Assembly (NCBI RefSeq): GCF_003052165.1
Contig: NZ_CP024869.1
Location: 744,001-808,000 of the forward strand
Length of the DNA: 64,000 nt
Direction: 5' to 3'
DNA from: Dietzia sp. JS16-p6b
GTDB lineage: Bacteria; Actinomycetota; Actinomycetes; Mycobacteriales; Mycobacteriaceae
In this document: piece after piece, positions 50,900-53,606 of the stretch
Numbering within the stretch: the first letter of the stretch is position 1
Layout: every line of letters starts with the position of its first letter
Position numbers and translations under genes: made by a program
The notes under the pieces: model-generated
Told to the model about the DNA's origin: nothing
What the model saw: the letters and a program-made list of their open reading frames with translations, nothing else
Database searches by the model: none

Positions 50900-51154
50900 G
50901 TGGCCCGAGTCGTCGTCGAAGTCATGCCCAAGGCCGAGATCCTCGATCCGCAGGGGCAGGCCATCCACCGGGCCCTGGGCCGTCTCGGCCACACGGGCGT
51001 GACCGACATCCGTCAGGGCAAGCGGTTCGAGCTCGAGGTGTCCGACGAGGTGTCCGACGCCGAACTCGAGGAGATCGCGTCGTCGCTCCTGGCCAACACG
51101 GTCATCGAGGACTGGACGGTCGTGCGCGTGGACACCGCGGAGGTGGCCTCGTGA
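50900..51154 (+). CDS. purS: FGAM synthase subunit PurS
   Basis: An 84-aa subunit bridging PurL and PurQ in formylglycinamidine synthesis. [19 protein letters not shown] and [10 protein letters not shown] are typical. The GTG at 50900 follows GAGGAG by 7 nt. TACGAT at 50830-50835 could be its promoter, giving a short leader. It overlaps purQ by 4 nt (GTGA). Confidence 0.94.
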
Positions 51155-51828
51155 GCGCACGGGTCGGCGTCATCACCTTCCCCGGCACGCTCGACGACAT
51201 CGACGCCTCGCGGGCCGTGACCAGGTCCGGCGCGGAGGCCGTCTCGTTGTGGCACGACGACGCCGACCTCAAGGGGGTCGACGCCGTGGTGGTGCCCGGC
51301 GGATTCTCCTACGGCGACTACCTGCGTTGCGGCGCGATCGCCTCGATGGCACCCGTCATGGGCGAGGTCATCGCGGCCGCCCGGGGAGGGATGCCGGTGC
51401 TGGGCATCTGCAACGGCTTCCAGATCCTGTGTGAGGCGGGCCTGCTGCCCGGTGCCCTCGGGCGCAACCGCGACATGCACTTCGTGTGCCGCGACGAGTG
51501 GCTGCGCGTGGAGAACACCGGCACCGCGTGGACCGGGCGGTTCGAGCAGGGGGCCGAGATCCTCATCCCCCTCAAGTCCGGCGAGGGGCGCTTCATGGCC
51601 ACGGCGGAGACGATCGCGCAGCTCGAGGGCGAGGGGCGAGTGGTGTTCCGCTTCGCCGGCGACGCCCCCAACGGATCGACCAACGGCATCGCCGGTATCT
51701 GCTCGGAGAACGGCCGGGTCGTGGGCCTCATGCCCCACCCGGAGCACGCGATCGACCCGCTGACCGGCCCCTCCGACGACGGCCTGGGGCTGTTCCTGTC
51801 CGCCCTCGACTCGGTGGTCACCGCCTGA
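51151..51828 (+). CDS. purQ: FGAM synthase glutaminase subunit PurQ
   Basis: A 225-aa class I glutamine amidotransferase that supplies ammonia to PurL. The nucleophile C87 is in [15 protein letters not shown], and the triad His/Glu in [27 protein letters not shown] forms the oxyanion strand. The GTG start overlaps purS. It is followed by a strong terminator, so purL (1.8 kb away) is transcribed separately. Confidence 0.96.
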
Positions 51829-51847: not shown

Positions 51848-51887
51848 ACGACGGGCCCGCCGGGATCACTCCCGGCGGGCCCGTCGT
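51848..51887. terminator. Strong bidirectional hairpin after purQ
   Basis: Perfect 18-bp stem (51848-51865 with 51870-51887, centre CGGGA TCAC TCCCG). It lies between purQ and the converging 63-aa gene. Confidence 0.82.
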
Positions 51888-51907: not shown

Positions 51908-52099
51908 TCAGAAGGCCGGGGCGCTGCTCCCGATATCCGCCCCGGCTCCACCGAGGATGTTCAGCAGCAGGCCCGGGAGGATGAACGCGGCCTGCGTGAG
52001 GGTGTCCACCGCGGAGGACCCGGTGGGCTCGCCGACGCTGCCCGAGGCCTCTCCGATGATGGGAAGGATGATTTCGCTGACCGAACCGACGAGGTCCAT
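51908..52099 (-). CDS. Small 63-aa hydrophobic/acidic protein, function unknown
   Basis: Begins MDLVGSVSEIILPIIGEA and ends GGAGADIGSSAPAF. It has two hydrophobic stretches (SEIILPIIGEA and AAFILPGLLLNILGGAG), no basic residues, no cysteine and no classical signal peptide. A near-perfect Shine-Dalgarno (AAGGAG, 6 nt before the ATG) and a long leader suggest high expression. Size, acidity and lack of a signal recall the small pore-forming PorA/PorH peptides of the corynebacterial mycolate membrane. I see no sequence identity to them, so that comparison is speculative. Confidence 0.68.
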   Translation of the reverse strand: MDLVGSVSEIILPIIGEASGSVGEPTGSSAVDTLTQAAFILPGLLLNILGGAGADIGSSAPAF

Positions 52100-52394
52100 G
52101 TGGTCTCCTTTACGTAACCGCCCCGAACGGTCTCGGGGTTGATGCCTGCCACCCTGGTGGTCGCAGGTGCAGGCGAGTCTGCACCCGGAGTTGGACACGT
52201 GGGGACTATTGCGTCCAGTTCGTTACATTAGTGTTTGCTGAGATTCTGGCCCTCGAGTGGGCGCGGGCAGACCGGAGCTCGGCGGATCGCCCGTCCTGCC
52301 GGCCCTCATGGATGCGGGCGTTCGATCCTCCGGCCCGGCAGCGGTCGCCGGACCCGTGGACTGCGGTAGGCGTGGAATGCGGTAGAACCGTGGG
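52100..52394 (-). other. 295-nt intergenic region with a foldable leader for the 63-aa gene
   Basis: This is the only gap of this size in the window. Read on the minus strand it holds possible -10 elements TAATGT and TAACGA around 52220-52235. Nearer the ATG are two small inverted repeats, GTGCAG-ACTCGC-CTGCAC (about 52170-52187) and CCACC-AGG-GTGG (about 52150-52162). No ORF or known riboswitch fold is recognised. Confidence 0.4.
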
Positions 52395-53606
52395 GTGAGC
52401 GAATCCACCACCCAGCCCGAGTCCGCGTCCGACAGATCCCACCGGCCGTTCGACATCGTCGTCTACGGTGCGACCGGCTACACCGGCGGCCTGGTCGCCG
52501 ACTACCTGATGCGCAACCTCCCCGAGGGGGGCGCGTGGGCGGTGGCGGGCCGGTCGAGGGTGAAGCTCGATGCACTCGTGGCCAGGCTCAGCGCCGAGAT
52601 GCCCGACGTCCCGGCCCCGGGGATCGTGGTGGCGGACACCGGGGATCCGGAGTCACTGGCGGACATGGCCGGGTCGGCCCGTGTCGTGCTCACCACCGTG
52701 GGCCCGTACCTCGAGTACGGCGAACCGCTCGTCGCCGCGTGTGCGGAGGCCGGTACCGACTACGTCGACCTCACGGGCGAGCCCGAGTTCGCCGACCGCA
52801 TGTACCTCGAGTACCACGACACGGCCGTGGCCTCCGGCGCGCGCATCATCCACGCGTGCGGGTTCGACTCCATCCCCCACGACCTGGGCGTGTACTACAC
52901 CATGAAGCAGGTCCCCGAGGGGGTACCGGTGGCCGTGTACGGCGCGGTCCACGCCGACGCCCAGTTCTCCGGCGGCACCTACCACTCGGCCATCGGCCAG
53001 TTCGCGAGGCTCCGCCAGGCCGCCCGCACCGCAAAGGCGCGGCGCGCGAAGGAGGGCAGGGTCGAGGGTCGGCGCATCAAGTCGGTGACGGGCAAGCCGC
53101 ACCACGACAGCGTCCTCGGTCGCTGGTTGGTCCCCCTGCCCACGATCGACCCGCAGATCGTCCTGCGCTCGGCGGCCGCGTTGGAGAGCTACGGCCCGGA
53201 CTTCAGCTACGCGCACTACGCCTCGGTCAAATCGCCTCTGACCGCGACGGCGGGCATGGTCGGGGTCGGGGCGCTGGCCGTGGGTGCGCAGATCGGCCCC
53301 ATCAGGTCTCAGCTTCTCAAGAGGATCGATCGTGGCGCCGGGCCGAGCGAGTCCCGCCGCGCCCGGTCGTCGTTCGACGTGACCTTCGTGGCGTTGGCGG
53401 GTGGGCGTCGGGTGGTCACCCGGGTCTGCGGCGGTGACCCCGGATACACCGAGACCTCCATGATGATCGCGGAGTCGGCCCTGTGCCTGGCCTTCGACGA
53501 GCTTTCCGCTCTCGCGGGGCAACTCACCACCGCCCAGGCGATGGGGGACGCGCTCCTCGCGCGCGTCGAGCGCGGGGGTCTGACCTTCGAGGTGCTGTCC
53601 ACCTAG
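52395..53606 (+). CDS. Saccharopine-dehydrogenase-like oxidoreductase (trans-acting enoyl reductase type)
   Basis: A 403-aa protein with an N-terminal Rossmann motif ([18 protein letters not shown]), [11 protein letters not shown], and the conserved [13 protein letters not shown] and [11 protein letters not shown]. This group includes mycobacterial Rv2449c and Rv2953, the latter an enoyl reductase working with polyketide synthases. No PKS is nearby. The GTG at 52395 follows TAGAAC by 6 nt, so it may be leaderless. It is likely an NADPH-dependent reductase; the substrate is unknown. Confidence 0.82.

Follow-up and report, generated by a model that had tools for sequence, protein, structure and literature searches.

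The small leaderless proteins of the mycolic-acid outer membrane (mycomembrane) that are characterised in the papers cited here are corynebacterial, and the route by which such proteins reach this membrane is unexplained. According to a preprint (PMC12632848), PorA, PorH and ProtX of Corynebacterium have no signal sequences and an unknown export route, Cmt1 is needed for PorH, the mycoloylated sites are S15 in PorA and S56 in PorH, and PorH and ProtX are linked to the cell wall. In the account of PMC11066868, mycoloylated serines tend to lie among Gly, Ser and Ala, with no strict consensus. ProtX of C. glutamicum, an O-mycoloylated phage receptor, is described as a very small, predicted helical mycomembrane protein that is not a proven pore, and a corynephage is reported to require both ProtX and PorA (PMC9671496). 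Small porins sit between groEL2 and ppk2 in C. jeikeium and other corynebacteria (PMC3792995), and Dietzia channels have been assigned to the MspA superfamily (PMC9233653).

The window studied here, by which we mean the whole 64,000-nt stretch of Dietzia sp. JS16-p6b DNA that was analysed (host genome a single contig of 3.72 Mb, 70.5% GC), contains between purQ and a dehydrogenase-like gene a 63-codon ORF whose product has three Asp, three Glu, no Lys, Arg, His or Cys and a net charge of -6 (Table 1). The original prediction had described a protein without Lys, Arg or signal sequence, having two hydrophobic stretches, a near-perfect Shine-Dalgarno sequence, two small leader hairpins and no identity to PorA or PorH. 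Each of these traits is found: the stretches are EIILPIIG and AAFILPGLLLNILGG, a basic n-region is absent, both hairpins can be placed ahead of the ribosome site, and the curated porin models are unmatched (see below). The window contains 600 ORF starts that give 50-80 aa, and this one alone is free of Lys and Arg; it also carries a Shine-Dalgarno sequence; the 15,617 ORF starts of 20 order-2 Markov windows included none. The perfect inverted repeat lying between the peptide gene and purQ is likely the shared terminator of these converging genes; it is GC-rich, has no T-run and was missed by a consensus terminator scan, and the seven weak matches of an Rfam scan, none of them near the gathering score, all fall over it. 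A scan for sigma-70-type promoters found none, and the gene had no match in either phage or plasmid sequence collections.

Table 1. Positions of the features discussed; plain numbers refer to the window, and G000:C1 numbers to the window genome.
Feature	Position	Strand	Basis or remark
63-aa peptide gene (family 1, locus A)	51908..52099	-	ORF (ATG at 52099, stop ends 51908), family alignment, K/R-free test, codon table
Shine-Dalgarno AAAGGAG	52105..52111	-	5 nt before ATG
Leader hairpin 2 (CCCCGAG-loop-TTCGGGG)	52121..52138	-	folding, leader alignment
Leader hairpin 1, shifted stem in window	52145..52167	-	most of 11 aligned relatives: GCGACC-ACCCG-GGTCGC
purQ, convergent neighbour	51151..51828	+	NCBIfam NF002957
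Saccharopine-dehydrogenase-like (NADP-binding) protein, divergent neighbour	52395..53606	+	Pfam PF03435
Perfect 18-bp inverted repeat, 4-nt loop (51848-51865/51870-51887)	51848..51887	.	between purQ and peptide-gene stops; fold z -7.97
Locus B smaller peptide	G000:C1:128364-128507	-	head-to-head pair
Locus B larger peptide	G000:C1:128744-128929	+	head-to-head pair
Locus C peptide	G000:C1:3251922-3252059	+	profile search
Locus D 52-aa peptide	G000:C1:3018626-3018784		behind GroEL
Locus D 53-aa peptide	about G000:C1:3017831-3017989		before PF00756 gene

Conservation in close relatives, by which the original prediction was to be judged, is found in part. With purQ located in all 23 genomes of the genus and the interval up to the dehydrogenase-like gene read in each, an intact peptide gene lies antisense between purQ and this same gene in 15 of them: as a single copy in 10, as two copies in G018 and G017 (the second in G017 having a weak ribosome site), as three in G013 and G015, and as two or more in G014, one stretch of which is masked by Ns. 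Four genomes have no copy here (G002, G003, G007 and G022, with intervals of 110, 310, 87 and 18 nt), so the purQ-locus gene is dispensable; purQ and the dehydrogenase-like gene persist in genomes that lost it. Only remnants are left in G001 (judged by eye) and G020, and the interval of G005 is interrupted by a contig end. The copy in G004 (L041) has ACG at the start position with its Shine-Dalgarno sequence and frame kept, which suggests that the gene is either silenced or translated, unusually, from ACG. The truncated copy in G020 (L018) is on the purQ strand, opposite to all others, and has no Shine-Dalgarno sequence, which suggests a local inversion followed by decay.

The purQ-locus peptides (family 1) are 61-79 aa long, carry a net charge of -3 to -7 (19 members) and diverge rapidly, with 35-53% identity to the window peptide as against 83-97% for PurQ. 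Their dN/dS ranges from 0.28 to 2.0 with a median of 0.88 over 11 hand-picked pairs, compared with 0.041-0.098 for purQ (8 pairs). Five of the 11 values lie at 0.88-0.99 and one is 2.0, figures that also fit weak constraint and that would suit a spurious ORF. We consider the latter possibility negligible given that: (i) the copies are intact and syntenic; (ii) ORFs free of Lys and Arg are so rare; (iii) all 19 leaders checked contain a Shine-Dalgarno-like motif and (iv) nine positions (M1, G5, S6, G27, S28, G53, D55, G57 and S58) are invariant in the family 1 alignment (A1), the codons of the glycines and of Ser 6 and Ser 28 varying synonymously and S58 always being AGC. The alignment has 20 rows, the duplicate G014 copies, the G004 ACG copy and the G001 and G020 remnants having been set aside; the codon comparison covers 19 sequences and omits the second G017 copy, with its weak ribosome site. 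The invariant positions include three unchanging Gly-Ser dyads, G5-S6, G27-S28 and G57-S58. In the family 1 tree 11 of 16 inner branches are open, and we claim no duplication history.

There are sister peptides elsewhere in the genome. The second match of the family 1 profile in the window genome (G000:C1:128750-128914, E 2.1e-7) falls in locus B, where a 58-61 aa peptide is encoded head-to-head with one of 48-55 aa, both GS-rich and leaderless (L149-L168), between a patatin-like gene and a sulfite/nitrite reductase gene. The smaller peptide, which 20 of the 23 genomes contain with E values no higher than 3.1e-20, is the most widespread family member, and the larger adjoins it in nine of the 20 loci (some contigs end nearby). 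Profile comparison by hhalign relates family 1 to the larger peptide at 95.6% (E 1.2e-8) and, less surely, to the smaller at 70% (E 4e-5). The locus B peptides (family 3; alignment A6 holds 18 of 20, two identical ones having been dropped) are free of Lys and Arg in 8 of 18 cases, as are 15 of 19 family 1 members, and across both families Cys is absent and Lys plus Arg number at most two in all 37 peptides checked. At locus C, 14 of the 23 genomes (E <1e-12) encode a peptide of 46-54 aa, joined in L175, L193 and L197-L200 by a tandem neighbour of 48-55 aa, and the ribosome sites mostly read GAAAGGA (L171, L175, L193, L197-L200 and the window genome); the locus C profile also retrieves locus B peptides, with E values of 2.6e-6 at best. 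A single locus C peptide was seen in the window genome, near ArgJ, AMP-ligase and polyketide-cyclase-like genes. The family profiles detected none of loci A, B and C in G007, and across these loci G022 has only one doubtful 58-aa ORF. The window gene is thus a real, rapidly diverging protein-coding gene belonging to a multi-locus family.

Within the limits of our search this Gly-Ser family appears to be confined to one genus. An order-wide scan of 397 genomes (86 genera), in which at most 15-17 candidates each were scored in the genomes listed and a distant relative could therefore be missed, gave six matches at E<=0.01 for A1 and two for A6; five of the former (best E 0.003) and one of the latter (E 0.002) lie outside the genus, with E values of 0.002-0.0075. 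We took these as chance matches, since a comparable small ORF was absent from the five of the six that were inspected. One of these five, L057, does show some resemblance, but it is partial and falls within a longer reading frame rich in basic residues. Of 80 named purQ loci, 14 (Rhodococcus, mycobacteria and Corynebacterium; 2,400 nt each) were inspected, and none has downstream a Shine-Dalgarno-led ORF of 40-85 aa that contains no more than one Lys or Arg. The Dietzia literature, among the matches listed, included no paper on such small leaderless peptides.

In size and build the window peptide agrees with PorA and PorH (about 40-60 aa, leaderless, acidic and helical), its 63 residues and its family being slightly larger. 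Likeness to the corynebacterial PorA/PorH families (NF033925, NF033937, NF033938 and PorACj, NF038022) extends from tiny, leaderless, helical proteins with mostly few basic residues to a strong Shine-Dalgarno sequence, a mycolate host and the low between-species sequence conservation described in PMC3792995. The window family nevertheless differs from them in that: (i) no sequence relation is detectable, the window peptide failing to match the curated NCBIfam PorA and PorH models at E<=10 and family 1 aligning by hhalign at only 2.2% with PorH and 0.2% with PorA, weak values given single sequences on the porin side; (ii) the gene stands alone between purQ and the dehydrogenase-like gene and not in the groEL2-adjacent porH-porA operon position and (iii) it has invariant Gly-Ser dyads and occurs in zero to three tandem copies. 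We accordingly rejected PorA/PorH membership, there being no model match, no profile similarity and another gene position, and by these tests the family at best works like PorA, PorH or ProtX. As a control, C. glutamicum PorH and PorA sequences pass the porH_2 and pora_1 models; the reach of porH_2 is limited, with none of five Corynebacterium genomes passing. None of the 23 genus genomes passes the cut-off for PorH_2, PorA or MspA, which is not evidence of absence given this PorH_2 result, an MspA model without a positive control and the existence of a peptide pair in the porin position (locus D). PE/PPE and WXG100 proteins are similarly leaderless, helix-loop-helix in form and often paired, but they are larger and depend on type VII signals, the residues of which are missing from the window peptide; without Trp and Tyr it can hold neither a WxG nor a YxxxD/E motif, and we rejected it as a type VII substrate. 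MspA superfamily proteins, expected to fill the same role in mycolata, have a 179-position domain and are secreted with a Sec signal; MspA membership was rejected as well, the window peptide having no match to PF09203 (Pfam). None of the 23 genus genomes exceeded the PF09203 cut-off, for which no positive control passed, and this contrasts with the MspA assignment of a Dietzia channel reported in PMC9233653.

Porin models below their cut-offs gave PorH_2 matches in one of the 23 genomes (E 0.25 and 0.37) and PorA matches at E<=1 in 14 (the best, 0.008, with an in-frame stop); three of these loci (L143-L145) encode groEL-linked leaderless peptides of 51-53 aa. In G013 (L213) a GroEL gene (TIGR02348 over cut-off) is followed by tandem peptides, each with a Shine-Dalgarno sequence, and then by a PF00756 esterase/mycoloyltransferase-like gene, every gene having the same orientation. 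This order is repeated in the window genome (G000:C1:3014000-3024000; GroEL 98% identical), and it recurs in fragments in G018 and in G007, where one peptide was seen, so that locus D is known from these four genomes. The 51-aa locus D peptide shares 10 of 13 residues with C. glutamicum PorA (BLAST E 2e-4, a single comparison) and matches the PorACj model below cut-off (E 0.0074); its hhalign value, 2.7%, is not convincing. For this peptide no relation to loci A and C is detectable (hhalign 1.2% between family 1 and the groEL-linked pair). The pair forms a separate family with a weak PorA/PorACj resemblance only; what it has in common with the window family is traits, no sequence relation being detectable. 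We think it likely that the genus has its main small porins in this pair, perhaps with the lipidating enzyme next to them. Because locus D is a better candidate for that role than the window gene, we regard the formation of an actual pore by the window peptide as doubtful.

AlphaFold models the window peptide as a helix-loop-helix (helices 3-21 and 29-58) with moderate scores (pLDDT 74.3, pTM 0.41), with S28 immediately preceding the second helix and S58 ending that helix, and gives the same form for family 3 (pLDDT 67.2). Foldseek found no fold match for the window peptide model in the PDB; a sequence search of solved structures returned two designed toroid proteins (E about 0.002), which we judged to be chance. 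A mycomembrane is to be expected in this host, since its genome encodes Pks13 and FadD32 over NCBIfam cut-offs in a mycolate cluster whose side-by-side members also include an LGFP-repeat mycoloyltransferase-like protein and an AftB-like enzyme, the latter below cut-off. The genome has six PF00756 matches.

We favor the possibility that the window peptide, whether or not it forms a channel, is a leaderless protein of the mycomembrane, of the same type as PorA, PorH and ProtX, and consider this probable. Our reasoning is that intact syntenic ORFs, invariant residues, a mycolate host, porin-like traits, sister peptides, a groEL-linked pair elsewhere and fast change all point this way; on the other side stand the missing relation to PorA and PorH, the lack of a partner gene at the window locus, the four genomes without a copy and the moderate AlphaFold scores. 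Of the original prediction, which proposed a small outer-membrane channel peptide, what has held is a real, small, leaderless and acidic peptide, conserved within the genus and having sister peptides elsewhere, in a mycolate host; envelope location, export and high expression are putative, and the channel is the doubtful part. As a working model, the peptide would be a small acidic protein of helix-loop-helix form, located in the mycolic-acid outer membrane, and a fast-evolving branch of a genus-specific family. Its strong ribosome binding site behind stem-loops, which is seen in the sequence, may give high expression; the product would be exported independently of Sec signals by the PorA/PorH/ProtX route, an Ag85/Cmt1-type enzyme would O-mycoloylate Ser of the invariant Gly-Ser dyads, and the protein would insert into the mycomembrane and self- or co-assemble, possibly as an accessory pore (the weakest step). 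The dyads are candidate mycoloylation sites and serve as a lead only, because the modified serines described in PMC11066868 follow no strict consensus. Exposure at the surface could then let phages drive both the divergence, which is observed, and the change in copy number, much as a corynephage needs ProtX and PorA (PMC9671496). A more tentative scheme, which we hold as possible rather than probable, has four loci of leaderless small mycomembrane proteins: D the main porin with an adjacent lipidating enzyme, A-C a separate Gly-Ser family with mycoloylated dyads, in which B and C form the core and the purQ locus a hypervariable, phage-driven accessory array.

A version of the preferred reading that denies only the assembly step would make the peptide a surface protein or wall linker resembling ProtX and carrying lipid at its Gly-Ser dyads; its copies would vary since phages use it. 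The likeness to ProtX is one of description, and the reported cell-wall linkage of PorH and ProtX (PMC12632848) agrees with it; fast divergence and loss suit a surface protein that is not the sole porin, for which locus D offers a separate candidate. The tandem pairs of locus C and the kinship of the window peptide to them keep a pore possible, and we rate this non-channel version as plausible, if rather unlikely. It is improbable, in our estimation, that the peptide stays in the plasma membrane or cytoplasm as a regulatory micro-protein. The absent signal peptide and the long predicted helix 29-58 with its hydrophobic core would be as expected, but Lys and Arg, which anchor membrane proteins at the inner face under the positive-inside rule, are lacking, invariant Gly-Ser dyads and fast change would be unusual in a regulator, and purQ and the dehydrogenase-like gene have outlived the peptide gene where it was lost.

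Still less probable, to the point of being hard to credit, is that the peptide is secreted as an antimicrobial or surfactant, or is a substrate of type VII secretion (PE/WXG100-like): such proteins too could be leaderless, and the predicted helical hairpin and the pairs at other loci are in keeping with one, but the 19 members are all acidic, Tyr and Trp are missing from the window protein, and the neighbours scanned (few at loci B and C) are not toxin, immunity or ESX genes. For the mycomembrane protein that we prefer, trypsin proteomics would be blind, as a peptide free of Lys and Arg offers no trypsin site, and the Dietzia vesicle proteome of PMC8027190 was made with trypsin. If its Gly-Ser dyads are mycoloylated, protein mycoloylation would extend beyond Corynebacterium. 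A separate family in another mycolate genus, its invariant Gly-Ser positions being clearly patterned, together with a groEL-linked pair beside a mycoloyltransferase-like gene, would allow determinants of export and lipidation to be compared and would give this genus concrete candidates for its channels.

The leader of the window gene may have a role of its own. Its 75 nt fold at -29.4 kcal/mol (z -1.94; 7 of 200 shuffles equally good), and two aligned stem-loops precede the Shine-Dalgarno sequence in 11 of 19 family 1 leaders. These 11 were chosen by eye for sharing hairpin 1 (alignment A4, leaving out two leaders of G015, one each of G013 and G018, and those of G016, G017, G006 and G021), and covariation among them is conditional on that selection: 93.3% of cells pair, against 33-53% in slid controls, and 4 of 15 pairs show two-sided change (1 of 500 shuffles as good), with an RNAalifold covariation term of only -0.03. 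In an unselected test, requiring a perfect stem of at least five pairs whose end lies 8-40 nt upstream of the start codon and using 100 shuffles per locus that preserve base composition only, the related and thus not independent leaders had such a stem in 13 of 19 cases at locus A (shuffle mean 7.6, maximum 12), a modest excess, in 16 of 20 at locus B (maximum 11) and in 14 of 14 at locus C (maximum 8). A role such as mRNA stabilisation would be consistent with these stems.
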